From: Bacteroidales bacterium
GTDB taxonomy: Bacteria; Bacteroidota; Bacteroidia; Bacteroidales; VadinHA17
Reading direction: 5' to 3'
DNA: 55,054 bases
Assembly: GCA_003141525.1 (NCBI GenBank)
Contig: PLML01000092.1
Coordinates: forward strand, 37,380 to 92,433
The position numbers and the translations under genes are program-made. Positions 29,906-54,107 of the stretch are shown one piece after another. The notes under the pieces were generated by a model. It searched no databases. It saw nothing but the letters and a program-made list of their open reading frames with translations, and was not told the origin of the DNA. Within the stretch, counting starts at the first letter, position 1, and every line of letters starts with the position of its first letter.

Positions 29906-29939
29906 TAATCTGACATATATATTTTCAAGTGATATAGTT

Positions 29940-31106: not shown

Positions 31107-31143
31107 ATAAACCTGAATTCATAATTATTTTTATATAATCATC

Positions 31144-33117: not shown

Positions 33118-33128
33118 AGGAGATCCGA

Positions 33129-33941: not shown

Positions 33942-35655
33942 ATTAAGTGAAAAATGGATTAAGGCATCCATTATCGGAACTATCTGGGCCGCATCAGAGA
34001 TTGTTCTCGGCAGTTTTCTCCATAACCTGAAGGTGCCATTCAGTGGTAATATACTTACTGCGATTGGAATTATTATTCTCGTATCAATAAGTTATACATG
34101 GACTGAAAAAGGCCTTTTCTGGCGCTCCGGATTAATATGTGCATTAATGAAAACGATGTCGCCAAGCGCTGTGATTTTTGGTCCAATGATAGCCATTTTC
34201 ACAGAATCGTTTCTGCTTGAGTTATCAGTGAGGCTTTTTGGCAGAACCGTTGCCGGATATGCAATAGGTTCAATGCTGGCTATGTCGTGGAACCTGGTGC
34301 AAAAAATTCTGAATTTTATTATATTTTACGGGTCAAATATTATAGAAGTCTATAGCAGCCTTTTAAAACTTGCACAGAAACAACTTAATATCCAGACTGA
34401 CATAGTCTGGTTGCCTATAATTATATTGTTGATTGTCTATGCTTTATTCGGACTTTTGGCTGCAGTTACAGGAATAAGAGTCGGCAACAAAATGGTAAAA
34501 CAGCCGGTTTCTGATTCTCCTTCTATTCTTGATCAGCCATTGCAGGATGTCGAACATAAGACAGAAAATGAATTTAAATATTCTATTACCTGGCTTTTAA
34601 TAAATATTAGTCTGATTATCAGTTCATTTATCTTATTGATCTTAACAACTTGGGTTATATGGAGCCTTGCGATAACAGGAATTGTAATTATCTGGTCTGT
34701 AAGGTATAAACGTGCTTTGCATCAGCTTTTAAAACCTAAGTTCTGGATACTTTTTGTATTTATTACACTGGTTACTGCATTTGTATTTACGAAGGCCCAA
34801 GCAGGTGAGAATTCATTGTTGAAAGGACTGCTAACAGGAGTACAAATGAATTTCAGGGCTGTTGTCATCATTGTAGGTTTTTCTGTACTGGGAACGGAAT
34901 TGTACAATCCGGATGTGAGGAATGTCTTTCTGAAGACCTCTTTTAAAAATCTTCCTCTTGCTCTCGAACTTTCAGCTGAAAGTTTGCCTTTGTTTATAGC
35001 TAATATCCCAGATTTTAAAACTCTCCTCAGAAATCCTGTCTTAGTATTTTATCGGGTAATTTCACATGCTGAAGGGCGATTGTCTGAAATAAAGGGAAAT
35101 ACTGCTTCGGCTAAGAAAATATTCATAATAACGGGATCAATTGGCGAAGGAAAAACAACTTACGTTAAAAAGCTAATCGAAATTTTCAGAAAATATAATA
35201 TTAAATGCGGAGGAATCTTATCAGAACGAGTGTTGACCAATTCCCAAACAACCGGTTATGATCTGGTAAATATAGAAACTGGAGAAAAAGAGACTTTTCT
35301 CAGACAATATGAAGAATGTGGATCTGAAAGAATCGGAAGATTCACAATCTGTCCAAAAGGTCTAGCGTTGGGAAACGCTATCTTAAACTCATTGATTTTA
35401 TCTGAAAACACATTTGTCATTATAGATGAAATTGGTTTACTTGAGATCAGGAATAAGGGTTGGTTTGATTGCCTTAATGACCTGGTAGAAAACTCCGGAA
35501 ATCATATTTTACTAATTGTCCGGGATACATATATTCATGAGGTGAAGAACAAATGGAATCTTAAAGAGGCAATTATCTTTAATATCAATGAGATTGATTA
35601 CCAGAATGCTGGCTTGCATATCATTGAAAATATTAATTCCAAATCAGGCAATTGA
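33928..35655 (+). CDS. Fusion of ECF-transporter-like membrane domains with THEP1-type NTPase
   Basis: The 575-residue protein has three parts. Residues about 1-190 form six or so helices resembling an ECF S component (KASIIGTIWAASEIVLGSF, GPMIAIFTESFLLELSV). Residues about 215-390 have further helices and an amphipathic tail (SLLKGLLTGVQMNFRAVVII) that recall the EcfT/CbiQ coupling subunit. Residues about 395-570 are a THEP1-like P-loop NTPase: GSIGEGKTTYVKKL (Walker A), FTICPKGLALGNAIL and FVIIDEIGLLEI (Walker B). It overlaps the DUF364 gene by 14 nt. I infer an energised inner-membrane importer in one polypeptide for the substrate of the TonB receptor. The ECF parallels are weak and need structure prediction. 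Confidence 0.78.
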   Translation: MIRHRLSEKWIKASIIGTIWAASEIVLGSFLHNLKVPFSGNILTAIGIIILVSISYTWTEKGLFWRSGLICALMKTMSPSAVIFGPMIAIFTESFLLELSVRLFGRTVAGYAIGSMLAMSWNLVQKILNFIIFYGSNIIEVYSSLLKLAQKQLNIQTDIVWLPIIILLIVYALFGLLAAVTGIRVGNKMVKQPVSDSPSILDQPLQDVEHKTENEFKYSITWLLINISLIISSFILLILTTWVIWSLAITGIVIIWSVRYKRALHQLLKPKFWILFVFITLVTAFVFTKAQAGENSLLKGLLTGVQMNFRAVVIIVGFSVLGTELYNPDVRNVFLKTSFKNLPLALELSAESLPLFIANIPDFKTLLRNPVLVFYRVISHAEGRLSEIKGNTASAKKIFIITGSIGEGKTTYVKKLIEIFRKYNIKCGGILSERVLTNSQTTGYDLVNIETGEKETFLRQYEECGSERIGRFTICPKGLALGNAILNSLILSENTFVIIDEIGLLEIRNKGWFDCLNDLVENSGNHILLIVRDTYIHEVKNKWNLKEAIIFNINEIDYQNAGLHIIENINSKSGN

Positions 35656-35728
35656 CTGTTAAGGTCAACAATCGTATTATTTTGAATTTGGGAAAACCTC
35701 CTCCAGCAAAAGATTGAATTCAAAAAAA

Positions 35729-35748
35729 CCGGTTGTTCCGGCCTTTTT
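35729..35748 (+). terminator. Possible weak terminator
   Basis: CCGG-TTGTT-CCGG followed by CCTTTTT, with a preceding A-run, lies about 75 nt after the fusion gene. The stem is short, so this is tentative. Confidence 0.35.
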
Positions 35749-35821
35749 ATGGATTTTAATTTTTAACTGTTTTTGAAATATTATGTCATTTGGTTTGTTT
35801 CCAACTACAGTGTACTAATTG

Positions 35822-36205
35822 TTAATTATGACTGCAGGAATGGCCATGCTCCTGATGAGCCTCATGTTGATGGCAGCTGCTGCCACTATCCTCTACTAAC
35901 CCCGAAAGATAGAGTTTTACAACTTCTGCGGCATCTCCGGAGCAACCGCGAATTACTTCTATTCCGCTATTATTAAGTACGTTAATGGCACCTCCGCCAA
36001 TACCGCCTGCAAGCATTACTGTAACGCCATCTGAGGCAAGTACTGATGCAATATCTGACTTACATCCGCACCCTTCCGGTGACCCTACACTCTTCATTTC
36101 AACTATTTCATTTTTATCTGATATAGTAAATACACCATACGATTCACAATGGCCAAAATGGCTGTCTATCTGATTATCCGACGTTACTGGTACTGCAATT
36201 TTCAT
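35822..36205 (-). CDS. NifX/NifB-like protein with His-rich C-terminal tail (second copy)
   Basis: A 127-residue protein of the same NifX/ORP family as that at 29585. The core MKIAVPVTSDNQIDSHFGHCE and DGVTVMLAGGIGGGAINVLN is typical of the ORP-like branch. The last 20 or so residues (SSCHQHEAHQEHGHSCSHN) are rich in His and Cys and likely bind a soft metal. It is third in a leftward operon after DUF134 and OsmC genes, with a 15-nt gap from osmC. Confidence 0.92.
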   Translation of the reverse strand: MKIAVPVTSDNQIDSHFGHCESYGVFTISDKNEIVEMKSVGSPEGCGCKSDIASVLASDGVTVMLAGGIGGGAINVLNNSGIEVIRGCSGDAAEVVKLYLSGLVEDSGSSCHQHEAHQEHGHSCSHN

Positions 36206-36220
36206 CTTTATAGTTTTTAG

Positions 36221-36619
36221 TTATTTTTGAGTTGTAATTACTTGAAATTCAGGTTGATTATTAATTGTTTTCTTCACCAGGCATAATTCTGCCGCATTTA
36301 TAACTGCTTCCTTATATTTTTCAGGGAATCCTAACGGTAACTGGATATCAAGTTTGAACAGAGAGGGTGTTTTTTTCTCATTATCAAATTCCATCGTTTG
36401 AATGATTTTAATCCCCTCAGTTGATATCTGGCGTCTGTCACAAAATGATTTTACGTAAATCCCTGCACATGTTCCGATTGATGCAAGGAATAATTCAAAT
36501 GGAGCAGGCGCACTATTACCACCTCCGTTATCAAGTGGCTGATCGGTCCTGATTGAATGTCCGTTAATATGTGCTGTTATCACTTTGCCGCCGTCAAAAG
36601 TTACTTCCATATTATTCAT
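36221..36619 (-). CDS. OsmC family protein
   Basis: A 132-residue OsmC/YhfA-like protein. The family pattern SAPAPFELFLASIGTCAGIYVKSFC provides the two conserved cysteines (GTC and SFC) used for peroxide or thiol chemistry in the OsmC/Ohr group, with the central helix ending at CDRRQ. The C-terminal second half (ELCLVKKTINNQPEF) has the usual third conserved position. The place between a DUF134 regulator and a NifX-like protein suggests a role tied to sulfide or thiol-bound metal rather than general peroxide stress; that is inference. Confidence 0.9.
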   Translation of the reverse strand: MNNMEVTFDGGKVITAHINGHSIRTDQPLDNGGGNSAPAPFELFLASIGTCAGIYVKSFCDRRQISTEGIKIIQTMEFDNEKKTPSLFKLDIQLPLGFPEKYKEAVINAAELCLVKKTINNQPEFQVITTQK

Positions 36620-36673
36620 TATTATTTGGCTAATTTTAATTGATACTATTTAAGTGAGAAATCAACAACAATC

Positions 36674-37099
36674 TCAAAGCTCATTTTTAATGGGTTGATT
36701 CATTCTTATTAATTCTTTCATACCATATACTTTGCAGTCTTTGCATCTGGAATGATTTTCAATGCCCTGAATTAATTTATAACATTTTTTACATCGGTAC
36801 CAATCATGTTCAAATTGAAAATTTCCACCTTCAATCTCAATTGACTTACCTTCTACGAATGCTTTTGCAATTGTCTTTAATGCTCTGTTATAAATCCGCG
36901 TAAATGTAGGTCTCGATATATTCATCTGCTTAGCAGCAAGATCCTGTGATAGCAGATCATAATCGACTAATCTGATACTTTCAAATTCTTCATACTTGAG
37001 AATAAGTGGCCCTATATCACACTTTTGCATCCCATAAGGTTTGAAACCTTCCATTTTTGGTGGATTACATATTTTCCTGCATTTCTCTGGACGTGCCAT
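36674..37099 (-). CDS. DUF134 family DNA-binding protein (second copy)
   Basis: A 141-residue paralogue of the 29193 product. ARPEKCRKICNPPKMEGFKP opens it, YEEFESIRLVDYDLLSQDLAAKQMNISRPTFTRIY is the HTH region, and CKKCYKLIQ...CKDCKVYG forms the C-terminal zinc ribbon. The recognition helix NISRPTFTRIY is identical in both copies, in agreement with the shared TGAAC-N4-GTTCA palindrome upstream of each gene. It is first in the leftward DUF134 - OsmC - NifX operon. Confidence 0.92.
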   Translation of the reverse strand: MARPEKCRKICNPPKMEGFKPYGMQKCDIGPLILKYEEFESIRLVDYDLLSQDLAAKQMNISRPTFTRIYNRALKTIAKAFVEGKSIEIEGGNFQFEHDWYRCKKCYKLIQGIENHSRCKDCKVYGMKELIRMNQPIKNEL

Positions 37100-38938: not shown

Positions 38939-40012
38939 TCAACAGCATCTTAGTACTAGAGGATTCTCCGGTATTCCAATATCTTCTCCATTCCGTCCTT
39001 TGTATTTTTTCCCAGAGTCGTAGATTATTCCCAATTTGTCAAGTAAAGGTTCAACTGCCACCTGATGAGTCTGCAAACCTATATCCCATGGATTATAACC
39101 TAAAAGTAGTCCTGCCAATTCTTCATAGGTCAATACCGGAATTCCATAACCATTTTCACCATAAGTTTTGCTTTTCATTTCGGCAATTACATATTGCCAC
39201 CGGTCGAGAAAAAAGGTGCAGCCTGGGCAGTTGGCAATTATAAGATCGGGTTTAAAAGGCTGCATCGAATCGAATTTCTTTTTTGAATTAGTGACAGAGT
39301 AAGATCTGTTCGATTTCAGCAGGTATTGCCTGAACCCGAATCCACAGCAATGGCGTCGTTCGGGATAGTCCACTTGCTTTCCTCCCCATTCGTCAATTAA
39401 GCCAGCCAGCACATAAGGATATTCAGCGCCTCCGATACCTTCTTGTGGAAAAATCTTAGCATAATGACAGCCAATATGATCAACAACTTTAATAGGTTCT
39501 TCGCTATTTTGATTAATCAACCTGAATTTTGCTTTTGCTGCAATCTCTTTACGGAATTTGTAAATAATATCGCTTGCATGAACAAGGTTTTTTGGTATTT
39601 CAAATGTTTTGCCGGTGGCCCGTTTTAATGCAACACGTGTTTTTTGTTCTGTTTCCGGGAAATGATTCCAGGTATCCATTACCTCAACATAAATACCAAA
39701 TGAGGTAACGCACGATGCAATAAAATTTTCATACCCGGCTTCGTTCATCAGGGAAAATTGGCGAGCTACCACGGTCATAATTGTTTCGAAAGGAATAATA
39801 CCCGAATGGTAGGCAATACCCGTACAGGTTGTCTGTCTTGCATCGTCATAAATATCTTTCTCCAGTTCATTTCTAAGGATATTCAAATACAGATTTTCCG
39901 CTGCCGGGAAGAAATTCTGCCTGATGCAACTGCGTGCAAAATAATAATGATCATCAGCTATCTCTTTCTGGTATGCTGCCCAGATTTCATTTTTCCTTGT
40001 CTTCATGAACAA
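38939..40012 (-). CDS. hdrB: HdrB-like subunit (CCG domain protein)
   Basis: The 357-residue protein is a heterodisulfide-reductase B-like subunit, the part that binds noncubane [4Fe-4S] clusters and handles disulfide or sulfur substrates. The C-terminal CCG motif is complete: a cysteine in VDHIGCHYAK, RHCCGFGFRQ, and ANCPGCTFFLDRWQ. The N-terminal one is degenerate: TTCTG stands where CCG is expected and only single cysteines (SCIRQ, ASCVTS) surround it, so one cluster may be lost or altered. It ends with a Cys-Cys pair. It is eighth in the dsrE-tusA-hdr operon. Confidence 0.88.
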   Translation of the reverse strand: MFMKTRKNEIWAAYQKEIADDHYYFARSCIRQNFFPAAENLYLNILRNELEKDIYDDARQTTCTGIAYHSGIIPFETIMTVVARQFSLMNEAGYENFIASCVTSFGIYVEVMDTWNHFPETEQKTRVALKRATGKTFEIPKNLVHASDIIYKFRKEIAAKAKFRLINQNSEEPIKVVDHIGCHYAKIFPQEGIGGAEYPYVLAGLIDEWGGKQVDYPERRHCCGFGFRQYLLKSNRSYSVTNSKKKFDSMQPFKPDLIIANCPGCTFFLDRWQYVIAEMKSKTYGENGYGIPVLTYEELAGLLLGYNPWDIGLQTHQVAVEPLLDKLGIIYDSGKKYKGRNGEDIGIPENPLVLRCC

Positions 40013-40041: not shown

Positions 40042-40728
40042 TTATTTGTTATACAGATATTTAAAATAATCATCATTCCCATCATTAAATTCAATGTTTA
40101 GTTCTTTTGCCTTGCCAGAAGAATATTTTTCGATCTTTTCAAACCGTTGGGTTGCACCGGTTTCATCAAATATCTTTTTAAGATCATTAAGCGATTCCTG
40201 AGATATATTGCGAAGTGTCCCGGATTGTTCTTTATTATAGCTTGTTCCAAGACGTTCCAGTATTGACTCCTTGTTTTGTCTTAACCAATCCCATATAGGC
40301 CCCTGTTCCGGATACATTTCAGTATCAATTTCATCAATAAATACACAATAACCATATTTCAAAATATGTTCTCCCACAATCCGTTTAACAGCCAATTGTT
40401 TTCTTCCCTGTTGACTCTCAATAAAAAAGCCTGTTTCAATAGATAATGCCCGTAATGCCTGAATAATATAACAGGGTGTATTTCCACGAGGACATCGTGT
40501 TTTACATGAAAGGCATTCACCACACATCCATATTGTATCGCTCTTAAGCAACTTTTCCAGCTCAGCTTCATCTTTTTGTTGTACAATATTGACAACTATA
40601 CGCGGGTCGTAATCGCTCACTTCAGCAGCAGGGCATATTGCAGTGCAAACTCCGCAGTTGAAACAAGATTTCAACCCTTCAAGGTAGCGGACATCTTTCT
40701 CAAGTTCTTTGTACAAATCTTTCATCAT
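40042..40728 (-). CDS. hdrC: HdrC-like iron-sulfur subunit
   Basis: A 228-residue protein has two classical [4Fe-4S] motifs, CFNCGVCTAICPA (about residues 21-33) and CGECLSCKTRCPRG (about 69-82), with the helical HdrC body after them. It wires HdrA flavin electrons to HdrB. The C-terminal 90 residues (after YCVFIDEID) are longer than in methanogen HdrC. Its start overlaps the qmoC-like stop by 4 nt, so translation is coupled. Confidence 0.92.
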   Translation of the reverse strand: MMKDLYKELEKDVRYLEGLKSCFNCGVCTAICPAAEVSDYDPRIVVNIVQQKDEAELEKLLKSDTIWMCGECLSCKTRCPRGNTPCYIIQALRALSIETGFFIESQQGRKQLAVKRIVGEHILKYGYCVFIDEIDTEMYPEQGPIWDWLRQNKESILERLGTSYNKEQSGTLRNISQESLNDLKKIFDETGATQRFEKIEKYSSGKAKELNIEFNDGNDDYFKYLYNK

Positions 40729-41873
40729 TTCTTATACGCTGCATTCTGTAAATTTGATAAATACACTGCAAAAGGTCGGTAGGCAAGGTGTGCCCATTTA
40801 GAGAATGGCACTTCAATCATCAGCATTGGAACCAGGATCATAAAATGAATTACATAGACATAATAAGTCGCATATGGAAGTCCTGATATCCTGAAAATAT
40901 GTACAAGTATGCCTGTAATAACGGTTCCTGAAAGAAGAAAAAGGAAGGTCCAGTCAGTGAAATGTGTGTGTTTGTTGTTCTCCTGGTCTCTTTTTATTCT
41001 TCCATAAACGAAAAATATCAGTCCAAAAGAAAGTCCAAAAGTGGCATAATATCCAAAAATCCTTTGAGGATGCCACCAGGGATGAATAAAATCTGTCTGA
41101 AACCATTCAAGAAATACCACGATCATTGTAAATAATAACACATAACCTGACATTAGCAACCAGTGAGATATCCAATAGGGACTTGCTTTTATATTAAGCC
41201 TCCCAAGTCTTGTTTTCCGATTGCTTTTAGTGAACCGCCATTGTGTTACGAAATGAAAAATAAGCTTCCAGAACTGTGTAAAGTAAAGCTTTAAGGGCAC
41301 TCTAATTTTCTTTTCACCATGAAAAACCATTAAATACATCCTTAAAATATTGGATATCAGGAAAAAAGACAGAATGCCTGCCATAATCCAGTCTCCTATT
41401 TCTATTTGTTTCCATGGAGCAAAGGTATTGAGCTTAACACCTCCCTGAGCAGTAAGTTCTGTGGTCATTGGTCCATGGAATAATATGAAAAGCACAAGCA
41501 CCATGGCTGCCAAAAATCCGATGGCTGCAAGTTCCCATGCCTTTGAAGTATAGAATTTCCGGGAAAGTCCAGTCCAGTCATATTTTGAGGTCTGCCATCG
41601 GCGCAGTGACATCATCAGTTCTCCGGGTTGTGCATCTCTGGGGCATGAACTGCTGCATTCACCGCAATAGTAACATAACCAGGGATCCAATGAAATTTGA
41701 ATCTCATTATCAAGACCAAGTACACTGTATCTCACCATTTTCCTGGGGAATGAATTTTCTTCATCCGACATTGCACAAACCGCGGTGCATGTACCACAGT
41801 TATAGCATGCGTTCATGTCAAATGCACCATATTTTTTTAATATCTCAGAAAATCCAGGATTTAATTCAGGCAT
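40725..41873 (-). CDS. qmoC: QmoC-like membrane subunit (HdrC/HdrE-type fusion)
   Basis: A 382-residue protein has an N-terminal HdrC-like region with two clusters (CYNCGTCTAVCAM and CYYCGECSSSCPRD, the first lacking the last proline) and then about six transmembrane helices (from LAAIGFLAAMVLVLFILF onward) of the HdrE/NarI-gamma cytochrome b type. The order is that of QmoC from sulfate reducers, which links a soluble Hdr-like complex to the menaquinone pool. Histidines in the helices (SHWLLMSGYVLLF, HFMILVPMLM) could bind heme b. It lies between hdrA and hdrC. Confidence 0.9.
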   Translation of the reverse strand: MPELNPGFSEILKKYGAFDMNACYNCGTCTAVCAMSDEENSFPRKMVRYSVLGLDNEIQISLDPWLCYYCGECSSSCPRDAQPGELMMSLRRWQTSKYDWTGLSRKFYTSKAWELAAIGFLAAMVLVLFILFHGPMTTELTAQGGVKLNTFAPWKQIEIGDWIMAGILSFFLISNILRMYLMVFHGEKKIRVPLKLYFTQFWKLIFHFVTQWRFTKSNRKTRLGRLNIKASPYWISHWLLMSGYVLLFTMIVVFLEWFQTDFIHPWWHPQRIFGYYATFGLSFGLIFFVYGRIKRDQENNKHTHFTDWTFLFLLSGTVITGILVHIFRISGLPYATYYVYVIHFMILVPMLMIEVPFSKWAHLAYRPFAVYLSNLQNAAYKK

Positions 41874-41884: not shown

Positions 41885-44161
41885 TTAATCGTTCTTTGCA
41901 TAAAGCAACTCTTGATGGACAACTGAATGATTCAACGCATAAGTATAATATTCGTCTTCATTAATAAAGTTTGTGTCCGATACATAACCATATTTTCGCA
42001 ACGACATCAGAAGATAAGTGACCTCTTTGGAAGGGAGGCTTATTTCCGCGGCAATTTCAGGAATTGATTTCGGTTCGGTCTCCAGTGCCTTTAAAATCTT
42101 TTTACTATTATCATCAAGTTTTTCCACTTTTAAATCCCACTCAGCATCTTGCTTTTTGATTCCTGATTTCTGCTCATCCGCAACATTTTGTTCTTTAAAT
42201 ACCACTTCTTCAGAAATGGCATCAATCATTGATTCGATCTCGCTGTTCGTATAACCAAGCAACTCAATTGCATCTTCATGGCAAGAAGGAAGGCAGGCAC
42301 CACAACCTTTGCATGCTGCGTTAACAATTCCTGCAATAGTTTTTCCTTCAGACAATGCTTTTACTACTGCCCCAAACGTGCAAATCTCTTCGCATTTGCC
42401 ACACCAGGTGCATTTTTCTTTATCTATTATTGCCAGGTTTGGTTCAAGCGTTATTGTTCCCTTGCTTATAAGTGAACTTGCCTTTGCTGCAGCAGCAAGA
42501 GAGGAAGTCATGGTCTCCGTGATATTCCTGGGACTCTGGCATGCTCCTCCGATAAATATCCCATCCATCACTGTTTCAACCGGCCTTAGTTTCGGATGAA
42601 TTTCATTAAAGAATTTGTCGGATCCTTGCGGAATCTTCAACACCTGTTTTAAGCTATCATTATTCCTGGCAACCATTCCCGTTACGAGTACTACCAGATC
42701 AGAATTGATAACTATTTCCATATTCTCCGTCAGGATGTCATTTAATCTGACTTCCAATTTCTCGTTAGACATTTGAACTACAGGATTTTTGCCTTCTTCA
42801 AACTGGAGGAAAATATTACCTTTTCTTGAAGCTTCATCATATAAAACTTCCTGCTTCCCATAAGTCCTGATACCTTTATGCAAATGGAAAGTTTTAATAT
42901 CGCTGTATTTATCACACAGTTTGAGTGATGCATGAATTGCCGCAGTACAGCAATAGCGTGAGCAATATGTCCTTTCTCCTGAAGGTTGTCTGCTACCTAC
43001 ACAATAGATGAAGGCAATATTTCTTATTTTTCTATTCTTCCAAACCAAGTCATCAGGATTTAATTCAATAAGCCTTTCCAGTTGCTGAAGTGTGATCACT
43101 TCTTTAATTTCCCCATAGCCAAATTCGCTTTTCATGGGTTCATATGCGTCATATCCTGTATTGACAAGAATTGCTCCTGCATTGACAGATATCTTTTCAG
43201 GTTTTTGATCAAGGTCTATACTGCCTATGCAAATATCGGCGCATTTTCCGCACCTGTTGCAAACCGACATATCAACAGCAGGTCTGCCTGGCAAGGAATT
43301 TTGATTATGTTTATACAAAGCTTTCCGCTCTGTAAGTCCGAAATTAAATTCATCAGGAAGAGAAACCGGACAAACATTGATTGAGTCCATAAATTCTTTT
43401 TCTGAAACATCTCCCTTTACATACCGTGGTTCGACATTTATGACGATTTCAAAATTTCCCACATTCCCCTTCATTCCAGCTATCTGAGTTCCTGTAAAAA
43501 GGGTTATGTTTGATCTTTTCTTGATCTCACGGAATAACTTTCCAACTATTTCATTACCGGTGGAGTTGCCTTGAAAAACCTTTCCCAATTGGGCAACGTG
43601 TCCGCCTATAAAATGATCCCTTTCAATAAGATAAACCTGAGTACCCATGTCAGCAAGTTCAATTGAAGCTCTCATCCCTGAAATGCCTGCTCCAACTACA
43701 ACAGAGGTATTTACAGTCTCCATTTCAATAGATTTAAGGTCCCTGAACCTGCGTGCTTTTTCAATCCCGGCAATAACTAATTTAATTGCTTTGCGGGTAG
43801 CCTCTGCAGGTTTATCGGAATGTGCCCAAGAGCTTTGTTCTCTTATATTAACCTGGATATAATTGTACGGATTCAATCCAGCACGACGGGCGACATCCCT
43901 GAAAGTCATCAGGTGAAGTTTTGGAGAACATGAGGCAACCACTATGGCATCAAGGTTTTTTTCTTTAATATCTTCCACCATACTTATTTGTGAAGCATCG
44001 GAGCATGTAAACATTGTTGTTTTAACCAGGCTTACTCCTGGATGGTCATTGATGACATTTTTTACTGCTTCGACATTTACATAGTCGGAGATGTTCCCTC
44101 CGCAATGACAGATATAAACTCCCACTCTGTGCTTTCTTATATCTTCTTTTGTCCCGTTCAT
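41885..44161 (-). CDS. hdrA: HdrA-like flavoprotein with C-terminal winged-helix extension
   Basis: This 758-residue HdrA homologue begins with VGVYICHCGGNISDYV, followed by the FAD-binding GAGISGMRASIELADMG (about residue 157). Ferredoxin-type motifs CNRCGKCADIC (about 305), CTWCGKCEEIC and CKGCGACLPSC (about 590-625) follow, along with the thiol-rich CSRYCCTAAIH segment. Residues about 680-735 (DDNSKKILKALETEPKSIPE ... LMSLRKYGYVSD) look like a winged helix not usual in HdrA. Its start overlaps the previous hdrA stop (ATGA). Confidence 0.92.
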   Translation of the reverse strand: MNGTKEDIRKHRVGVYICHCGGNISDYVNVEAVKNVINDHPGVSLVKTTMFTCSDASQISMVEDIKEKNLDAIVVASCSPKLHLMTFRDVARRAGLNPYNYIQVNIREQSSWAHSDKPAEATRKAIKLVIAGIEKARRFRDLKSIEMETVNTSVVVGAGISGMRASIELADMGTQVYLIERDHFIGGHVAQLGKVFQGNSTGNEIVGKLFREIKKRSNITLFTGTQIAGMKGNVGNFEIVINVEPRYVKGDVSEKEFMDSINVCPVSLPDEFNFGLTERKALYKHNQNSLPGRPAVDMSVCNRCGKCADICIGSIDLDQKPEKISVNAGAILVNTGYDAYEPMKSEFGYGEIKEVITLQQLERLIELNPDDLVWKNRKIRNIAFIYCVGSRQPSGERTYCSRYCCTAAIHASLKLCDKYSDIKTFHLHKGIRTYGKQEVLYDEASRKGNIFLQFEEGKNPVVQMSNEKLEVRLNDILTENMEIVINSDLVVLVTGMVARNNDSLKQVLKIPQGSDKFFNEIHPKLRPVETVMDGIFIGGACQSPRNITETMTSSLAAAAKASSLISKGTITLEPNLAIIDKEKCTWCGKCEEICTFGAVVKALSEGKTIAGIVNAACKGCGACLPSCHEDAIELLGYTNSEIESMIDAISEEVVFKEQNVADEQKSGIKKQDAEWDLKVEKLDDNSKKILKALETEPKSIPEIAAEISLPSKEVTYLLMSLRKYGYVSDTNFINEDEYYTYALNHSVVHQELLYAKND

Positions 44162-46872
44162 GACAGACTTTTTAGATAGCTGGCAACTTCAGCAGATGTA
44201 CATCCTGCAGAAAGAATTGTATCAGGAATATCTTTTGGTCCGGATGCACTGCCAGAAACAAAAACCCCTTCCATGCTTGTCTTTGAAGGACTTATAAATT
44301 CATCAGTTTGTTTTATAAAATTGAACTGGTCGAGTCCTAAAGGAATTCCATTGAACATTGTTGTTACGTCCATATTGGGCTGCACGCCAATAGCCAGGAC
44401 AACCAGGTCATGCTTAGCTTCTCTGATCTTACCTGATTTCAGATCCTCATATTTAAGCTTTAGATTGCAATCTTCTGTCTCTTCAATAGTTGCAATTTTC
44501 CCTTTTACAAATGCAACTCCCATTCCCTTTGCACGCTGGTAGAATTCTTCAAACCCTTTTCCGAAGGAGCGGATATCAATATAATAGATTGTGATATCTG
44601 CCAGGGGCAAAGCTCCCATAAGTAATTGACCTTGTTTAATAGAGTACATGCAACAAATCTGGGAACATACAAGATTATTTACTGTTCGGTCCCTGGAACC
44701 GGCGCAGAGAACATAGGCAACATTATCCGGTATTCTACCATCCGATGGCCGTAAGACAGTATTATAGGGTCGTGTAGGAGCCAGTTGCTTTTCCATACTA
44801 AGGGCAGAAATAACATTGGTAAATTGGCCACCCCCGTAACGTTTCAGTCTTTCCATGGGGAAAAGGTTAAATCCTGTTGCCATTACAACTGCTTTAGCAT
44901 GGACTTCAATTTTCTGATCCCTTTGTGAAAAATCTATTGAACCTGCCTGGCATATATTCTGACAAATATGACATTCCCTGCATGTTGCACAATCAAGGCA
45001 GAGTAACGCGCTTTCCCTGGCTTCTTCCTCTGAAAAGGTAAGTTCAATTTCAGCAGTGTCTTTTATACGTGCAATGGGATCACGTTCTTTTTTCCCGTTT
45101 CGCGGAACAGCATTTATGTAGGCTCTACTCAGGACATTTTTATGCGAAACGGCAGGAAGCCTTACATCATAATCTGCATCCATACTTTCCCCTTCAAGAT
45201 ATCTGTCGATATAAAAAGCGGCACGTTTACCCTGGCCAATTGCTTCTATGATTGAGGATGGACCTTTAACAACGTCGCCTCCGGCAAATACTCCTGGTCT
45301 TGAAGTCCGCAATGTCTTTGAATCAACTTTAATGGTTCCGTCTTCATTTAAATCCAACTCTTCATTAAAACCCTGAGTATCGGGATTTAATCCGATTGAT
45401 TGTATCACATAATCCACATTAATCTCATGCTCTGATCCTTCAATAAATTCAGGAGTTCTTCTACCGCTTTCATCAGGTTTGCCAAGTTTCAGGTTTTTAC
45501 ATCTCACCTTTTTCACCTGACCTTCTTCTCCGATAAATTGGACAGGAGATGTTAAATAGTTGATTCTGATGCCTTCACTTTCAGCTTCTTCAACTTCAAA
45601 GTCATAAGCTGGTATTTCGGCACGGCTTCTCCGGTAAGAAATAATAACTCTGGCAGCGCCCATTCTGACAGCTGCTCTTGCTGTATCCATGGCAACATTA
45701 CCTCCACCGCAAACAACAACTGTTTTGCCTGCAAAATCAAATTTCTCACCCTCATTGAAGGCTTTCAAAAAATTCAGGCAATTAAATACACCTTTAAGAT
45801 TATCTCCAGGGATATTCATACTTCTGGCTTTATGCGTCCCAATAGATAAATAAACCGAATCAAACCCAGAAGTTAATAATTCACCTGTACATAATATTTT
45901 CCGATTTACTTCATACTCCACACCTAGTGCAAGTATATTTTTTATATCCCTGTCAACAACGTCATTTGGAAGCCTGAAAGTTGGAATGGCTGACTTCAGC
46001 ATTCCTCCAAGTTCTTTTTCAGTTTCAAATATTTTTACGTCATATCCTTTTTTTGCAAGGAAATATGCTGCTGTCAATCCTGAAGGTCCGGAACCAATGA
46101 CTGCGATTTTTTTACCTTTCGTTTTTTGTGTTGGTTCGTACTGAGGTACTGGATATTTATTATAATAGTAATCTGTAAAAAAACGTTTTATCTTTCTGAT
46201 GTCTACAGAACTCTCTTTCTCTCCGCGTGTACATTCCTTTTCACATGGAGCATAACAGGCTCTTCCAAGAGAACCTGGTAGCGGGACATCCTCCATATGC
46301 AGGTTAAAAGCATCTTCAAACCTGCCATCCTTCACTAGTGAAATATATCCATGTGCTTTTACGCCCCCCGGACAGGTAGCAATACATGGTGAAGAGACTC
46401 CACCACGATCAATTACTGCAATTTTAGGGCTTGCTGTCGCAAAAGGAATATATGCTGTTTTTCTTGAAACCATGCCATAAGCAAACTGGTCGGGGATGAA
46501 AACAGGACATTTATCCTCACATTCCTTACAACCGGTACAGGTTGACTCGTTAACATATCTAGGATGTTTGATAACGCTGGCAATATATCCTTTCTCATTT
46601 TTATGAATATTTTCCGCTTCCGAATATGTAAGTACTTTAATATTTGGATGGCGACCTACTTCTGACATTTTTGGTGTAGTAATGCAGGCAGCACAATCGA
46701 GGGTCGGGAAGACCTTGCTCAACTGGATCATCTTTCCACCAATGGACAAATCTTTCTCAACAAGAATCACCCTATACCCCATATTTGCCAGGTTAAGGGA
46801 AGTCTCCTGTCCGGCAATCCCACCGCCAACAACCATAACGTCGCATTCTTTCTGTATTGGAATATTATCCAT
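44158..46872 (-). CDS. HdrA / GltD (NADPH oxidoreductase-like) fusion flavoprotein
   Basis: The 904-residue protein carries an HdrA-like frame. The N-terminus has GGGIAGQETSLNLANMG and SKVFPTLDCAACITTPKMSEV, an HdrA signature; the C-terminal part has CSQICCMYSIKQGQLL and the final GPKDIPDTILSAGC. Inserted from about residue 150 to 620 is a GltD-like unit: CIATCPGGVKAHGYI, CYAPCEKECTRGE, FAD motif GSGPSGLTAAYFLAKKG and NAD(P)H motif GGGNVAMDTARAAVRMG. It therefore could feed NAD(P)H electrons into the Hdr/Qmo complex or take them out. Similar HdrA-GltD fusions exist in anaerobes; this exact pairing with dsrE-tusA is unusual. Confidence 0.92.
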   Translation of the reverse strand: MDNIPIQKECDVMVVGGGIAGQETSLNLANMGYRVILVEKDLSIGGKMIQLSKVFPTLDCAACITTPKMSEVGRHPNIKVLTYSEAENIHKNEKGYIASVIKHPRYVNESTCTGCKECEDKCPVFIPDQFAYGMVSRKTAYIPFATASPKIAVIDRGGVSSPCIATCPGGVKAHGYISLVKDGRFEDAFNLHMEDVPLPGSLGRACYAPCEKECTRGEKESSVDIRKIKRFFTDYYYNKYPVPQYEPTQKTKGKKIAVIGSGPSGLTAAYFLAKKGYDVKIFETEKELGGMLKSAIPTFRLPNDVVDRDIKNILALGVEYEVNRKILCTGELLTSGFDSVYLSIGTHKARSMNIPGDNLKGVFNCLNFLKAFNEGEKFDFAGKTVVVCGGGNVAMDTARAAVRMGAARVIISYRRSRAEIPAYDFEVEEAESEGIRINYLTSPVQFIGEEGQVKKVRCKNLKLGKPDESGRRTPEFIEGSEHEINVDYVIQSIGLNPDTQGFNEELDLNEDGTIKVDSKTLRTSRPGVFAGGDVVKGPSSIIEAIGQGKRAAFYIDRYLEGESMDADYDVRLPAVSHKNVLSRAYINAVPRNGKKERDPIARIKDTAEIELTFSEEEARESALLCLDCATCRECHICQNICQAGSIDFSQRDQKIEVHAKAVVMATGFNLFPMERLKRYGGGQFTNVISALSMEKQLAPTRPYNTVLRPSDGRIPDNVAYVLCAGSRDRTVNNLVCSQICCMYSIKQGQLLMGALPLADITIYYIDIRSFGKGFEEFYQRAKGMGVAFVKGKIATIEETEDCNLKLKYEDLKSGKIREAKHDLVVLAIGVQPNMDVTTMFNGIPLGLDQFNFIKQTDEFISPSKTSMEGVFVSGSASGPKDIPDTILSAGCTSAEVASYLKSLS

Positions 46873-46899: not shown

Positions 46900-47325
46900 T
46901 TATTCAGTTCTCAGTTCATTTTGTATGCTTCCCATTTCCGTTAGTGAATTCATAAAAGCTTTCATGTGACTTACAAAAGGGTCAGCACATACTGAACAGA
47001 TTGCTGCCATTTTAATTCTTGCAACATTAATTCCTTCAATTTTCATCGCTTCCTGTGCAGATTTAATTGTTACAGATGTAATATCGGAACAATCAGAGCG
47101 ATATGCGCAATCCGTGCCATCGCTGGCAATAAATACACCATCAATACCTCTTTTTAGTGCATGTAAAATCCACCTGGGTTTTATACTGCTGGTACAGGGG
47201 ACCGTAATGTTGTAAACTGAAGGAGGATAATGTTTCTTCAACAATCCGGCAAGATCAATTGCCGGATCTGAAATTCTCTCCGAAGAAAACACCAGTATCT
47301 TTGGTACAAATTGTACATCAGCCAT
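46900..47325 (-). CDS. MvhD-like (hydrogenase delta / HdrA-partner) iron-sulfur protein, degenerate
   Basis: A 141-residue MvhD-family protein. The core is recognisable (NITVPCTSSIKPRWILHALK, GIDGVFIASDGTDCAYRSDC, and CSVCADPFVSHMK). The N-terminal cysteine pair normally found in the family's CxxC (CNWC) position is absent, replaced by VFSSERI, so it may hold a [2Fe-2S] cluster with other ligands or none. In methanogens MvhD links hydrogenase to HdrA. Here no hydrogenase is near, so it likely mediates contact between HdrA and the sulfur-carrier proteins. It follows tusA by 11 nt. Confidence 0.82.
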   Translation of the reverse strand: MADVQFVPKILVFSSERISDPAIDLAGLLKKHYPPSVYNITVPCTSSIKPRWILHALKRGIDGVFIASDGTDCAYRSDCSDITSVTIKSAQEAMKIEGINVARIKMAAICSVCADPFVSHMKAFMNSLTEMGSIQNELRTE

Positions 47326-47631: not shown

Positions 47632-48051
47632 TTAGATAAAGAGATTCAAATCAGCTACTTCAGCAGTTTGGATATATTGGGCGATCCCACAAATGTCATC
47701 GGCCAGGTCAATAAAATCGTCAAGTTTTTCTCCATGCCAGACTTTACCTGCAAAACCGCAGATGTGGATTTTTACACTTGTCAGCTCTTTTGCTTTGCGG
47801 AAAGCTTCAGTCCAGTGAGGAGTCCCAAGACGTTTCAATGAAGCCAGAAAATCATCTTTTTTGTCAGTAATTTCTGCCACTCTATCATTGACCATTGCAT
47901 TTTCTTTTTTAAATGCAAAAGCAGCCTGAAGAAGTATAAAGATCTCAACATCCATATCTTCAGCAGCAGCACCGCCAAGGATAACCCCGGCAGCAGTCAG
48001 TTTGTCCACGCTACCTGTATAGAGCGCAAGGCATAATTTTTTCTTTTCCAT
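47632..48051 (-). CDS. DsrE-family sulfurtransferase-like protein
   Basis: A 139-residue DsrE/DsrF-like protein opening the leftward operon. KLCLALYTGSVDKLTAAGVILG starts the fold; DMDVEIFILLQAAFAFKKE and VKIHICGFAGKVW hold the core, and Cys in HICGFAG is the candidate sulfur-carrying residue. DsrE partners TusA in dissimilatory sulfur pathways. A Crp-type site lies 92 nt upstream. It is longer than and not obviously close to the DsrE-like protein at 23567. Confidence 0.88.
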   Translation of the reverse strand: MEKKKLCLALYTGSVDKLTAAGVILGGAAAEDMDVEIFILLQAAFAFKKENAMVNDRVAEITDKKDDFLASLKRLGTPHWTEAFRKAKELTSVKIHICGFAGKVWHGEKLDDFIDLADDICGIAQYIQTAEVADLNLFI

Positions 48052-49716: not shown

Positions 49717-51954
49717 ATGACAAATAGAAGGCAATTCATCAAAATTTCAATCGCTGGTGCCGGTGCCATGACATTAGGGGCAGGAGCCTTAAAAGCCATG
49801 GAATGGATATCTAAACCTGAAAACAGTGGAAAAATAACAGTGGACCTGAAACGTACTCCAACTTATTGTGAAGTATGTTTCTGGAAATGCGCAGGATGGG
49901 TTTACAAAACTTCTGAGGGTAAAATTTGGAAAATCATAGGCAATGATGAAGACCAGCATTGTAATGGACGCTTTTGCCCTCGTGGCACAGGTGGTGTTGG
50001 AATGTATTATGATGAAGACAGGTTGAAAACACCTCTGATAAGAGTAAAAGAACGCGGCAAGCAGGTCTTTCGTGAGGTATCATGGGATGAAGCTCTTGAT
50101 TATATTTCAGTTAAAATGAAGGAGATTTCTTCAAAATATGGTCCAGAAAGTATGGCACTCTTCACTCATGGTTCAGGCAGTGCCTATTTTACAAATTTAT
50201 TAAAAGCATATGGTTCATCAAATATAGCTGAACCCTCATATGCACAATGCCGCGGACCGCGGGATGAAGCTTTTCTTGCAACATTCGGAGAAGAAGTTTA
50301 TTCACCGGAAATAACAGACATTCGCGACACAAAATGCCTTGTATTGATCGGAGCACATATTGGTGAGAATATGCATAATGGCCAGATACAGGAAATGTCG
50401 GATGCGATTGATAAAGGAGTCACAATAATTACTGTAGACCCAAGGTTTTCAACTGCTGCCGGAAAATCAAAATATTGGCTTCCTATTAAACCTTCTACCG
50501 ATATTGCATTGCTTCTGTCATGGATACATGAAATTATCTATAACGGTTATTACGATAAAAATTATGTCGAAAAATATTGCAGTGGGTTTGATAAACTGAA
50601 AGAACATGTCAGGGATTTTACTCCCGAATGGGCTTACGGGATTACAACCATTAAACCAGATCTGATCAGAAAAACTGCAAAGGAAATGGCGAATGCATCT
50701 CCTGCTGTCTTAATTCATCCCGGAAGACATGTTACGTGGTACGGGGATGATACCCAGAGGGTTCGGGCAATTGCAATTCTAAATGCTCTTCTTGGTTCCT
50801 GGGGCAGACGTGGAGGTTTTTACAGACCTGCAAAATTCAATGTTCCATCAGCTAAAATTCCAAAATACCCTGAAGCCAAGAAGAGTTGGACAGACGCATT
50901 CCCTGGCAAATTTCCGATAGCAAGTTCTCCGGTTTCAAATGCTCTTATTGATGCTTCAATTCCTGAAAATAAACCTGGCTTTTTAATAAAAGGGTGGATC
51001 GTTAACGCAACAAACCTGGTCTCATCAATTCCAGGTCAGGCAAATACACTAAAAGCAATCCAGAACCTTGATCTGTTAGTGTCTGTGGACACCATGCCAA
51101 TGGAGATCACCGGATGGGCCGATGTTGTCTTACCTGAGTGTACCTATCTTGAAAGATACGATATGCTCAGAATAAGTCCCCATCGTAAACCTGCAATAGC
51201 ATTGAGAATGCCAGCCGCTGAGCCAATGAACAGTACCAGATCAGGATACAATATTGCCCGGGGACTCGCTTTAAAACTTGGACTCGAAAGCTATTTCCCT
51301 TTTGAAAAACAGGAAGAATTACTTGACTGGCAACTTAAACAGTCGGGTTCTTCACTTGAAGAAATGCAGCGAATCGGGGTAAAAACGAATGCAAGGGAAG
51401 CAGATGATCTTTATTTTGCTGAAAATGAAAATGTATCTTTCCCAACAGATTCAGGCAAGATAGAATTGTATTCCAAAGCTTTTGAAGACGCCGGATTTGA
51501 TCCTCTTCCTAAGTATGTAGCACATGAAGAACCCCCGGAAGGTTTCTACCGTTTGATCTATGGCCGTGCTCCAATGCATACTTTCGGAAGAACTTCAAAT
51601 AACCCGAATCTGACTGACCTTATGCATGAAAATTCAGTTTGGATAAATCCAAAAGTATCAAAAGAGTGGGGTCTGGTTAACGGTCAGTATATCCGGCTCA
51701 AAAACCAGGATGGAATTCTTTCCGATTTTAAAATTAAAATTAGAGTAACTGAACGTATCAGGTGGGATTCAATTTATATGGTACATGGTTTTGGTCATGG
51801 TCAGAAGCAGCTTAAGCGTTGCTTTGGCAAAGGTGCCAGCGATACTCAGTTGATAACAAAAGTGCTTGTTGACCCTCTGATGGGAGGAACAGGGATGAGA
51901 TCGAATTTTGTAACATTTGTCACTGAAAAGTCAGAGAAGGAGGTTGCATCATGA
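49717..51954 (+). CDS. Molybdopterin oxidoreductase, PsrA/PhsA (polysulfide/thiosulfate reductase) type
   Basis: A 745-residue DMSO-reductase-family catalytic subunit. A twin-arginine signal (TNRRQFIKISIAGAGAMTLG) directs it to the periplasm. The N-terminal [4Fe-4S] cluster uses Cys51, 54, 58 and 86 (CEVCFWKC ... RFCPRG), and Cys178 in PSYAQCRGP is the likely metal ligand. Cofactor motifs IGAHIGENMHNGQIQEM, LLGSWGRRGGF and GRAPMHTFGRTSNN follow. Family relatives reduce polysulfide, thiosulfate or tetrathionate, or work in reverse. The psrB start overlaps its stop (ATGA). It may contain Mo or W; the 29-37 kb island and the TorD-like gene at 19583 are possible helpers. Confidence 0.9.
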   Translation: MTNRRQFIKISIAGAGAMTLGAGALKAMEWISKPENSGKITVDLKRTPTYCEVCFWKCAGWVYKTSEGKIWKIIGNDEDQHCNGRFCPRGTGGVGMYYDEDRLKTPLIRVKERGKQVFREVSWDEALDYISVKMKEISSKYGPESMALFTHGSGSAYFTNLLKAYGSSNIAEPSYAQCRGPRDEAFLATFGEEVYSPEITDIRDTKCLVLIGAHIGENMHNGQIQEMSDAIDKGVTIITVDPRFSTAAGKSKYWLPIKPSTDIALLLSWIHEIIYNGYYDKNYVEKYCSGFDKLKEHVRDFTPEWAYGITTIKPDLIRKTAKEMANASPAVLIHPGRHVTWYGDDTQRVRAIAILNALLGSWGRRGGFYRPAKFNVPSAKIPKYPEAKKSWTDAFPGKFPIASSPVSNALIDASIPENKPGFLIKGWIVNATNLVSSIPGQANTLKAIQNLDLLVSVDTMPMEITGWADVVLPECTYLERYDMLRISPHRKPAIALRMPAAEPMNSTRSGYNIARGLALKLGLESYFPFEKQEELLDWQLKQSGSSLEEMQRIGVKTNAREADDLYFAENENVSFPTDSGKIELYSKAFEDAGFDPLPKYVAHEEPPEGFYRLIYGRAPMHTFGRTSNNPNLTDLMHENSVWINPKVSKEWGLVNGQYIRLKNQDGILSDFKIKIRVTERIRWDSIYMVHGFGHGQKQLKRCFGKGASDTQLITKVLVDPLMGGTGMRSNFVTFVTEKSEKEVAS

Positions 51955-52484
51955 GATACGCAATGGCAGTAGATACAAAAAAATGTGTCGGATGCAGCGA
52001 TTGTGTTGTTGCCTGTCAGACAGAAAATAATGTTCCTCATGGTTTTTGCCGCGAATGGGTAGTTGAAACTATGAATGGCACTTATCCTCAGCTCGAAATT
52101 GAGATCAGGTCAGAAAGGTGCAATCATTGTATTAATGCACCTTGTGTTCGTTGTTGTCCTACCGGAGCCAGTCATTTTGCTGAAGGAGGAATTGTCCTTG
52201 TCGAACATAATAAATGTATTGGCTGTGGCGCATGTATGGCTTCATGTCCTTATGATGCCAGATATCCCCATCCCGATGGTTATGTCGATAAGTGCACTTT
52301 TTGTTTTCACAGGATAAAGATTGGTCTGGCCCCTGCCTGTGCTGCAGTTTGTCCAACAAAATGCATCTATTTTGGAGATCTGGATGATCCGAATAGTGAT
52401 GTCTCAGTTGTTTTGAAAAAGCGTAAATCAAAAACGCTAATTCCTGAAGCAGGTACGAAACCACAACTGTATTTTTTGATTTAA
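51951..52484 (+). CDS. PsrB-like 4Fe-4S electron-transfer subunit
   Basis: A 177-residue ferredoxin-type subunit with four cluster motifs in order: KKCVGCSDCVVACQTENN, ERCNHCINAPCVRCCPTGA, NKCIGCGACMASCPYDARY and KCTFCFHRIKIGLAPACAAVCP. This is the usual DmsB/PsrB/NrfC arrangement that wires the molybdopterin subunit to the membrane anchor. It has no signal of its own, so it would be exported with PsrA. It starts within the psrA stop and is 19 nt upstream of the NrfD-like gene. Confidence 0.94.
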   Translation: MRYAMAVDTKKCVGCSDCVVACQTENNVPHGFCREWVVETMNGTYPQLEIEIRSERCNHCINAPCVRCCPTGASHFAEGGIVLVEHNKCIGCGACMASCPYDARYPHPDGYVDKCTFCFHRIKIGLAPACAAVCPTKCIYFGDLDDPNSDVSVVLKKRKSKTLIPEAGTKPQLYFLI

Positions 52485-52503
52485 TCAAATAATGATCATT
52501 TAA

Positions 52504-53445
52504 ATGGAAGAAGAATTATTAGTAAGTGGCAGAATGAATCAACTCATTGATCCACAACTTAATATCTGGCATTGGCAGATTCCGCTTTATCTCTTTCTCG
52601 GAGGGATGGCAGCCGGAATTCTTTGTATTGCTGCGCTCTATTTTATCCGGGGTAGGGAAAATGACTACAGAACTGCAGTCCGCATTACTCCATTTCTGGC
52701 TCCTTTTCTGCTGGTTATAGGATTAATAACTCTCTTTATTGACCTCAGACATAAACTGTTTTTCTGGCAGCTTTATACAAACATACGTTTGCAATCACCT
52801 ATGTCCTGGGGAGCATGGACCCTGATGGTTATAACACCAGTTTCCTTTATCTGGTGTGCCCTTCATATTAAGGACATTTTCCCAAATTGGGATTGGAAAT
52901 TCAAATGGATATATGACATTGAGTCTTTCTTTAACAAGTATAAGAAAGTCCTTGCATGGATTATGCTCATTTATGGGATAATTCTTGGAATATATACAGG
53001 TATTTTATTATCAGCTTTTAATGCACGGCCTCTATGGAATACATCAATACTGGGACCGTTATTCCTTTCATCCGGACTTTCCGCGGGTGCAGCAGCAACA
53101 TTGATTTTATCAAAGAATAAATCAGAACGCAGGCAATTTGCCAGAATAGACCTGGTATTAATAGGGATTGAACTGTTTTTTATTATACATATGTTCATGG
53201 GTTTTCTGGCCAGCACCCAAGTTCAGATTGAAGCTGCAAAACTGTTTCTTGGAGGACCATATACTATGTCATTCTGGATATTTGTTGTAATACTGGGTAT
53301 GCTTATTCCTGCTCTCCTAGAATTTATGGAGTTGAGTAAGTTCCATATTCCAGCAATTGTCCCAGCAGTACTGGTGATTTTTGGTAGTTTGATGTTGCGT
53401 TTTATAATTGTCTATGCCGGACAGGTAAGTCGGTGGCTTTATTGA
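52504..53445 (+). CDS. PsrC/NrfD-like quinone-interacting membrane subunit
   Basis: A 313-residue NrfD/PsrC-family protein with about eight hydrophobic helices. HWQIPLYLFLGGMAAGILCI at the start, MSWGAWTLMVITPVSFIWC, and GILLSAFNARPLWNTSILGPLFLSSGLS contain the conserved helix ends and the Gly-x-Leu/Asn-x-Arg-P elements around the quinone site. It anchors the PsrAB unit and exchanges electrons with menaquinone. The set PsrA-B-C is complete. Confidence 0.93.
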   Translation: MEEELLVSGRMNQLIDPQLNIWHWQIPLYLFLGGMAAGILCIAALYFIRGRENDYRTAVRITPFLAPFLLVIGLITLFIDLRHKLFFWQLYTNIRLQSPMSWGAWTLMVITPVSFIWCALHIKDIFPNWDWKFKWIYDIESFFNKYKKVLAWIMLIYGIILGIYTGILLSAFNARPLWNTSILGPLFLSSGLSAGAAATLILSKNKSERRQFARIDLVLIGIELFFIIHMFMGFLASTQVQIEAAKLFLGGPYTMSFWIFVVILGMLIPALLEFMELSKFHIPAIVPAVLVIFGSLMLRFIIVYAGQVSRWLY

Positions 53446-53488
53446 GAAAAAAGAATAAAAATCGAAAATTAGTATAACAATTTATAAT

Positions 53489-54022: not shown

Positions 54023-54107
54023 AACGGCGTAGGACACAGGGCAAAAATGACTGCAGGACCGCAAGACAATAAGATATTCAGACAAATAGACAAATAGACA
54101 AAAAATC

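Follow-up and report, generated by a model that had tools for sequence, protein, structure and literature searches.

A QmoC-linked operon of Bacteroidales encoding an HdrA with an inserted GltD/NfnB-type module

The operon and its genomic surroundings

The window, the whole 55,054-nucleotide stretch of DNA that was analyzed, from an anaerobic Bacteroidales bacterium, carries on its minus strand a compact run of genes related to the heterodisulfide reductase (Hdr) and Qmo systems. In the order of their transcription, these are as follows.

47632..48051, minus strand: DsrE-like sulfurtransferase, 139 aa, with C98 conserved in 18 of 18 and the gene upstream of mvhD in most loci; its match to Pfam DrsE_2 falls barely below the cut-off
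46900..47325, minus strand: mvhD/FlpD-like [2Fe-2S] protein, 141 aa (PF02662, 1.9e-26), with five cysteines invariant across 23 orthologues
44158..46872, minus strand: hdrA with the inserted GltD/NfnB module, 904 aa (P0001), from the open reading frame and domain searches; 14 full-length proteins including P0001
41885..44161, minus strand: hdrA2, 758 aa, with an N-terminal cluster domain, a C-terminal ferredoxin and a winged-helix-like tail (domain searches and alignment); H410 occupies the position of K409
40725..41873, minus strand: qmoC-like membrane cytochrome b with an HdrC-like 2[4Fe-4S] head, 382 aa (NF038018, 191 bits against a cut-off of 300)
40042..40728, minus strand: hdrC-like, 228 aa (NF041779, 1.2e-29)
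38939..40012, minus strand: hdrB-like, 357 aa, with one complete CCG motif (C182, CC222-223, C262xxC265) from domain searches

The genes are closely packed: 27 bp separate mvhD from hdrA, hdrA overlaps hdrA2 by 4 bp, 11 bp lie between hdrA2 and qmoC, qmoC overlaps hdrC by 4 bp, and 29 bp lie between hdrC and hdrB, with dsrE 306 bp upstream of mvhD. In homologous loci with enough flanking sequence, the core mvhD-hdrA-hdrA2-qmoC is constant and is usually adjoined by dsrE and a Crp-type regulator. The hdrCB pair falls outside this conserved core, directly following qmoC in this window only and lying at a distance of 1-2 kb in one further locus. In the QmoC-like protein, eight cysteines and H237, H343 and H362 are invariant in 28 of 28 sequences and hydrophobic segments are present; the three histidines are candidate haem ligands. 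The other half of HdrB retains only C29, C63 and C101 in place of a second complete CCG motif, a state that is also seen in two relatives.

Several further loci were observed around this operon and elsewhere in the genome. Divergent from it, with two Crp-type regulators between, is an operon for a PhsA/PsrA-FeS-NrfD thiosulfate/polysulfide reductase-like system, followed by genes for two YeeE/YedE-type membrane proteins (49717-54698, plus strand). At 29193-37099 of the window, two sets of DUF134-like and NifX-type dinitrogenase-cofactor-like genes flank a TonB-receptor region, and homologues of one or both sets also occur near Hdr operons at L046, L047, L051, L058 and L072. A second sulfur-type locus in the host genome (L064, C38:6000-24000) encodes HdrC, HdrB, a 341-aa HdrA, an HdrC-like protein and a 662-aa FeS/CCG protein in succession, and continues with further genes for a sulfide-quinone-reductase-like flavoprotein, a DsrE and a class-V aminotransferase.

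Architecture of the fused HdrA and its HdrA2 partner

The hdrA gene is one stop-free open reading frame of 904 codons on the minus strand, read from 46872 down to 44158; the plus strand there is rich in stops. Pfam, NCBIfam and PDB searches match HdrA in two stretches, about residues 11-156 and 624-900, and between these they recover a Fer4_20 domain (161-238) and an NAD(P)H:flavin module (about 254-560). Among solved structures, the NfnABC and StnC large subunits and NfnL come closest in sequence to the middle of the protein, and methanogen HdrA to its two ends. In the AlphaFold model, whose mean pLDDT is 81, both flavin cores are predicted with confidence. In Foldseek comparisons, the insert of the model resembles solved NfnL structures (TM 0.77-0.80 on the target) and also matches the NfnABC and StnC folds, while the part outside the insert resembles the whole 428-residue M. 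marburgensis HdrA (TM 0.85 on the target), spanning the gap. The main features of the protein are listed below; M. thermolithotrophicus E356 and K409 correspond to E694 and K746 of P0001.

46408..46872, minus strand: first half of HdrA, residues 1-155, with the FAD Rossmann motif GGGIAG, FPTLDC60AAC63 and ferredoxin motif 1 (alignment with plain HdrA homologues and PDB HdrA)
46684..46695, minus strand: C60/C63 (FPTLDCAAC), holding the "Cys197" ligand that would be offered to the N-terminal cluster of a partner HdrA, a role described in PMC9012536
46507..46539, minus strand: ferredoxin motif 1, C112, C115, C118 and C122, invariant in the alignment
45004..46407, minus strand: inserted GltD/NfnB-type module, residues 156-623, missing at the same site in 14 plain homologues (NCBIfam NF009410 at 160-654; PDB NfnABC/StnC/NfnL)
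46078..46095, minus strand: GltD FAD site GSGPSG, residues 260-265, GxGPxG in 17 of 17 (14 inserted and three long homologues)
45685..45708, minus strand: GltD NAD(P)H site GGGNVAMD, residues 389-396, GGGN[VT]A[MI]D in 17 of 17
45622..45636, minus strand: YRRSR, residues 413-417, past the second Rossmann strand on the side of the cofactor 2'-phosphate, YRR[ST] in 17 of 17
44989..45000, minus strand: C625xxC628, equivalent to the N-terminal CxxC half of NfnL, at the C-terminal end of the insert (HMMER, P0001 594-630 against 4ylf 8-44)
44158..45003, minus strand: second half of HdrA, residues 624-904, with E694, C723/C736/C740/C741 and K746 (alignment with PDB HdrA 8rvv and homologues)
44950..44982, minus strand: ferredoxin motif 2, C631, C634, C637 and C641, invariant in the alignment

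The position of the insert was defined with homologues from the same order, namely 14 complete inserted proteins (904-921 aa) and 14 plain ones (about 420-450 aa). The plain proteins read ...PRIAxI-DIENCxLCGxCExxCPxxxIDF..., and the inserted proteins carry residues 156-623 between those two stretches. The insert, of about 470 residues, thus sits exactly between the two four-cysteine motifs of HdrA's own ferredoxin domain. In ferredoxins of this kind, each cluster draws ligands from both motifs; hence, the module must bud out from a loop, leaving the ferredoxin halves free to meet. Relative to free NfnL, the order of the module is permuted as in StnC, the N-terminal segment of NfnL that ends in RCLxC (4ylf 8-44) being found at P0001 594-630. 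By virtue of this permutation, C625 and C628 supply the CxxC that is absent from the start of the module and join its two ends, which would make for good insertion geometry. As C625/C628 stand only two residues from ferredoxin C631, the GltD and ferredoxin cluster chains abut, pointing to a probable electron contact between the two. The case for this contact is made from ligand spacing, the model being at its least reliable in the ferredoxin halves, where pLDDT falls below 50.

The cofactor motifs of both units are retained. On the HdrA side, the thioredoxin-reductase-like fold with its FAD motif is present together with the four-cysteine cluster, C723, C736, C740 and C741 being invariant. On the GltD side, GSGPxG (at 260), YRRSR (at 413), the GGDxVxG...EAxGQG segment (at 531) and C163, C167, C206, C210 and C214 are found in 14 of 14 inserted proteins, and the FAD, NAD(P) and Fe-S motifs are intact even where insert identity falls to about 52%. 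The initial annotation had predicted a 904-residue chain in which HdrA and GltD each contribute a flavin unit, without giving the strand. The domain searches and the structural model agree with this layout, and the boundaries that it placed at residues 150 and 620 lie within about six residues of the 156-623 obtained by alignment to uninserted homologues. Its proposal of an NAD(P)H port also withstands alignment: the FAD and NAD(P)H sites are both intact in P0001 and its homologues, with the key NAD(P)H-binding motifs kept in 14 of 14. Taken together, these features make it very probable that the fused HdrA has a working NAD(P)H port. The GGGN[VT]A and YRR motifs of the insert resemble those of the NADPH enzymes NfnL and StnC, although a Moorella-type protein in the same order (L052) shares them and its class is reported to be NADH-active.

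In methanogen HdrA, one ligand of the N-terminal cluster, Cys197, is donated by the other HdrA, and tandem ANME HdrAs show complementary losses (PMC9012536). In the operons studied here, FPTLDCxxC is present and the N-terminal domain absent in 28 of 28 HdrAs of the fused or plain type, and reciprocally, the N-terminal cysteines (C[HRA]CG...SCSPKLH) are present and the equivalent of Cys197 absent in 26 of 26 HdrA2 proteins. By the logic set out in PMC9012536, such complementary losses are read as a heterodimer, and they strongly suggest that the fused HdrA and HdrA2 form an obligate pair. The marker pair for bifurcation, E356/K409, is present in P0001 as E694/K746. All inserted, long and plain HdrAs keep the lysine, and HdrA2 has histidine in its place; the glutamate is an aspartate in most orthologues.

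Distribution and evolution of the inserted form

Complete, stop-free inserted copies, 56-59% identical to P0001, occur in 11 other genomes among 393 of the same order, which also hold one longer relative at 38% identity, and named Bacteroidales MAGs carry the inserted form at 55-77% identity. Complete copies thus recur in other genomes, different assemblies yielding 14 full-length proteins at 54-77% identity, so that an assembly chimera or artefact can be rejected. Plain HdrAs of about 420-450 aa fill the same slot, mvhD-hdrA-hdrA2-qmoC, usually beside dsrE, in many genomes; among the matches listed for the 393 genomes, the plain form is found in roughly 55. With a plain sister group in the same slot, the module behaves as a clean presence/absence trait. 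One genome (G311, L051) has the inserted and plain versions about 12 kb apart and another (G348) has them on two contigs, so that the two forms are not mere replacements of each other.

The two operon types also differ in hdrA2. In the window, a winged-helix-like domain of about 70-90 residues is fused to the HdrA2 C-terminus (41885-42241, minus strand), as is usual for the inserted operons, whereas in most plain operons hdrA2 encodes about 640 aa and the same domain forms a separate open reading frame of about 90 aa in the interval before qmoC (e.g., L054:6794-7066 and L068:11514-11786). The fusion places a DNA-binding-like fold on a redox subunit.

Longer relatives are rare. A single genome of the 393 has a 1510-aa form of the Moorella type; its gene lies in a Moorella-type cluster reading hdrC-hdrB-hdrA-mvhD-metV-metF-like (L052:4726-13040; 36% identical to P0001). 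Outside the order, longer GltD-HdrAs were found in two of 396 genomes of the phylum, one (L062) accompanied by hdrC, hdrB and mvhDGA-like genes. The other (L063:7682-16414), from a different order of Bacteroidota, has in a row a qmoC-like gene (176 bits), a gene for a 1490-aa GltD-HdrA double unit, mvhD and mvhG/mvhA-like hydrogenase genes, an arrangement in which H2, NAD(P)H and quinone ports may possibly be combined. Separately, the order commonly has StnC-like proteins of 1200 aa in which the GltD module lies close to the N-terminus (L077, L078, L082, L084), and their genes mostly lie beside a gene of about 595 aa that could encode StnB.

The trees are provisional because of long branches, and a few of the inserts used were cut too wide by a secondary match. 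In the tree of the HdrA core, the plain set forms one clade (99/95), which the inserted set adjoins in a manner compatible with a single clade (p 0.46); grouping the Bacteroidales inserted set with the long Moorella/Mvh-type GltD-HdrAs is rejected (p 9e-5). In the tree of the module, the Bacteroidales inserts form one clade (100/100), and joining them with the inserts of the long GltD-HdrAs gives p 0.126. On this phylogenetic evidence, the inserts of this operon type have a single shared origin. Two gains at one site, or a loss in the plain set, would account for the Moorella-type and Bacteroidales inserts; the plain set either lost the module or descends from an ancestor that never had it. 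As the Moorella-type proteins fall outside the Bacteroidales HdrA clade, any activity assigned by homology to them rests on a distant relative.

Known relatives and the proposed electron transfer

The insertion of a GltD/NfnB module into HdrA has already been described. HdrL of Desulfobacterium autotrophicum was reported in 2009 as an HdrA/glutamate synthase fusion, with an NADH port suggested (PMC2702500). By that description, it resembles P0001 in being an HdrA/GltD-type fusion beside mvhD and differs in being partly selenocysteine-containing and in that HdrL1 adjoins dsrABC rather than qmoC. HdrA9/10/11 of ANME-1 were described in 2022 as having an NfnB insertion (PMC9012536), and the "type III" HdrA of ANME-1 and Bathyarchaeota, described in 2025 (PMC12054007), corresponds to them. 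P0001 likewise has the GltD/NfnB domain inside the ferredoxin domain with FAD and NAD(P) sites intact and is, by its architecture as read from sequence, an NfnB/GltD-inserted ("type III") HdrA; like class A9 of ANME-1 (PMC9012536), it derives from an HdrA without N-terminal and C-terminal Fe-S domains. In contrast, those proteins are archaeal and belong to methane metabolism, with no QmoC described in the available sections, whereas P0001 is bacterial and accompanied by HdrA2, MvhD and QmoC. As applied to archaeal type III proteins, the GXGXXG rule may pick out the Rossmann motif for FAD instead of that for NAD(P).

The Moorella thermoacetica MetVF-HdrCBA-MvhD system (Mock et al. 2014, cited in PMC9430772) shares with P0001 an HdrA unit interrupted by GltD and an MvhD partner. 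It differs in having two HdrA units in one chain of about 1490 aa, coupling to MetVF and an operon with no quinone subunit; the operon in the window has no metVF and one HdrA unit per chain. The Moorella HdrA is reported to oxidize NADH, with an activity of 190 U/mg when assayed with benzyl viologen (PMC9430772). Ferredoxin is not its second acceptor, and a quinone has been suggested for that role (PMC13040438). Other systems share only parts of the arrangement. FlxABCD-HdrABC also links NADH to Hdr, but through a separate Flx subunit; flxABC is absent from the fused-hdrA operon, and the host genome seems to have a FlxABCD-HdrABC-like operon elsewhere (C75, L059). HdrB of the heterodisulfide reductase HdrABC has two complete CCG motifs, in contrast to the one in the HdrB described here. 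The NfnL/NfnB, StnC and NfnABC large subunits (5jca, 4ylf, 8oh5, 9n5u, 9bov) have the fold and motifs of the P0001 insert, and StnC also its permuted CxxC end, but in these the module is a free-standing subunit or a NuoG fusion and is not inserted into HdrA. In the literature searched, we found no report of a QmoC-linked GltD-inserted HdrA in Bacteroidota or Bacteroidales, and this quinone-linked version seems to be undescribed.

The NADH activity of the Moorella protein, the position of the module at the ferredoxin exit, the QmoC residues and the lack of dsrA and aprA lead us to propose that the NfnB/GltD-inserted HdrA, HdrA2, MvhD and QmoC form a complex for NAD(P)H-menaquinone-(sulfur) electron transfer, a reading that we regard as likely. 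In canonical HdrA, the inserted ferredoxin domain passes low-potential electrons to ferredoxin (PMC9012536, PMC12054007). In the proposed complex, the fused HdrA would pair with HdrA2 as a heterodimer and join MvhD and the membrane cytochrome QmoC, with the module taking over the exit used for ferredoxin. NAD(P)H or NAD(P)+ would react at the FAD of the module, and electrons would pass through its [4Fe-4S] clusters to HdrA's split two-cluster ferredoxin and thence to the HdrA flavin. From there, one branch would lead through HdrA2 and QmoC to menaquinone, and another through MvhD, joined by HdrCB in the loci that have it, to a third partner, probably sulfur in the form of a persulfide or disulfide. 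As a working guess, NAD(P)(H) would be the low-potential partner and menaquinone the high-potential one. The architecture, the intact sites, the conserved operon and the complementary HdrA pair on which this proposal builds are evident in the sequences themselves. Complex formation, the direction of flow and any bifurcation at the HdrA flavin are what we infer from them.

The initial annotation had envisaged an Hdr complex with an NAD(P)H port beside a quinone port and sulfur thiols as a further partner. The complete module in HdrA and the conserved downstream QmoC-like gene indicate that the first two ports are genetically wired together. The sulfur-thiol port fares less well, since hdrCB is seldom linked to the operon; the conserved neighbor is an upstream gene for a DsrE sulfurtransferase.

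Menaquinone can be reduced by NAD(P)H in a downhill reaction that needs no coupling, which lends some plausibility to an oxidoreductase of a simple, non-bifurcating type. In it, a plain NAD(P)H dehydrogenase would feed electrons to menaquinone (or to sulfur) over a Qmo-like wire, with the HdrA flavin serving only as a relay. The GltD-type module of StnC is such a non-bifurcating relay despite keeping the key arginine (PMC10482914), and the aspartate in place of the marker glutamate in most orthologues and the missing lysine of HdrA2 point the same way. However, the invariance of K746 across inserted, long and plain HdrAs, the retention of E694 in P0001 and the lack of an obvious need for two HdrAs and MvhD weigh against a mere relay, which we hold to be a tentative possibility. 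True bifurcation or confurcation is itself somewhat doubtful, though we would put it slightly ahead of that relay. Its fullest form is unlikely, namely a membrane-anchored Bacteroidales HdrA heterodimer that would bifurcate or confurcate electrons among NAD(P)(H), menaquinone and DsrE-type protein-bound sulfane sulfur, with NAD(P) replacing ferredoxin.

A directional form of the proposed NAD(P)H-menaquinone-(sulfur) complex would be reverse electron transport, in which electrons from sulfide or persulfide, delivered by DsrE, MvhD and HdrCB, are split, with one pair going to menaquinone and the other uphill to NAD(P)+ to provide reductant for biosynthesis. The adjoining dsrE with its conserved C98 is in keeping with this, as are the genes for sulfide:quinone-reductase-like, DsrE and class-V aminotransferase proteins found beside homologues or in other parts of the genome, and the placement of the NAD(P) module on the HdrA branch that delivers low-potential electrons (PMC9012536). 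Yet the sequence carries no direction of flow, the genome has no dsrA or aprA and HdrCB is linked in few loci, and we likewise consider this direction unlikely. Far less probable is a degenerate passenger module, retained as a structural insertion and binding neither flavin nor NAD(P)H: redox complexes do carry inactive inherited domains, as in the FdhF part of StnC (PMC10482914), but here the FAD, NAD(P) and Fe-S motifs are kept in 14 of 14 inserted proteins down to about 52% insert identity. Least credible of all is a classical QmoABC serving APS reductase, with an extra domain on QmoA. The operon does share with QmoABC two HdrA-like subunits and an HdrC-cytochrome b membrane subunit. However, MvhD is separate, an NAD(P)H module is present and the QmoC score of 191 bits lies below the family cut-off of 300. 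Moreover, neither dsrA nor aprA finds a match in the host genome, which is about 94% complete; hence, the operon is not a classical Qmo, and such a complex with APS reductase is rejected for this host unless aprA lies in the missing part.

For about a dozen genomes, the preferred reading, that of an NAD(P)H-menaquinone-(sulfur) complex, places an NAD(P)H-reading HdrA in the same operon as a membrane subunit that reacts with quinone. This link to QmoC bears on the second electron partner of the Moorella-type NADH-HdrA, for which a quinone has been proposed (PMC13040438). Losses of cluster ligands that complement each other, as has been proposed for HdrA heterodimers, are now also seen in Bacteroidota. 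Sister genomes with the same operon minus the module offer a natural with/without comparison, which makes it possible to test directly both what the module does and whether the quinone hypothesis holds. If true, the bifurcating reading would represent an NAD(P)H bifurcating complex coupled to both quinone and sulfur, of a kind new to description.
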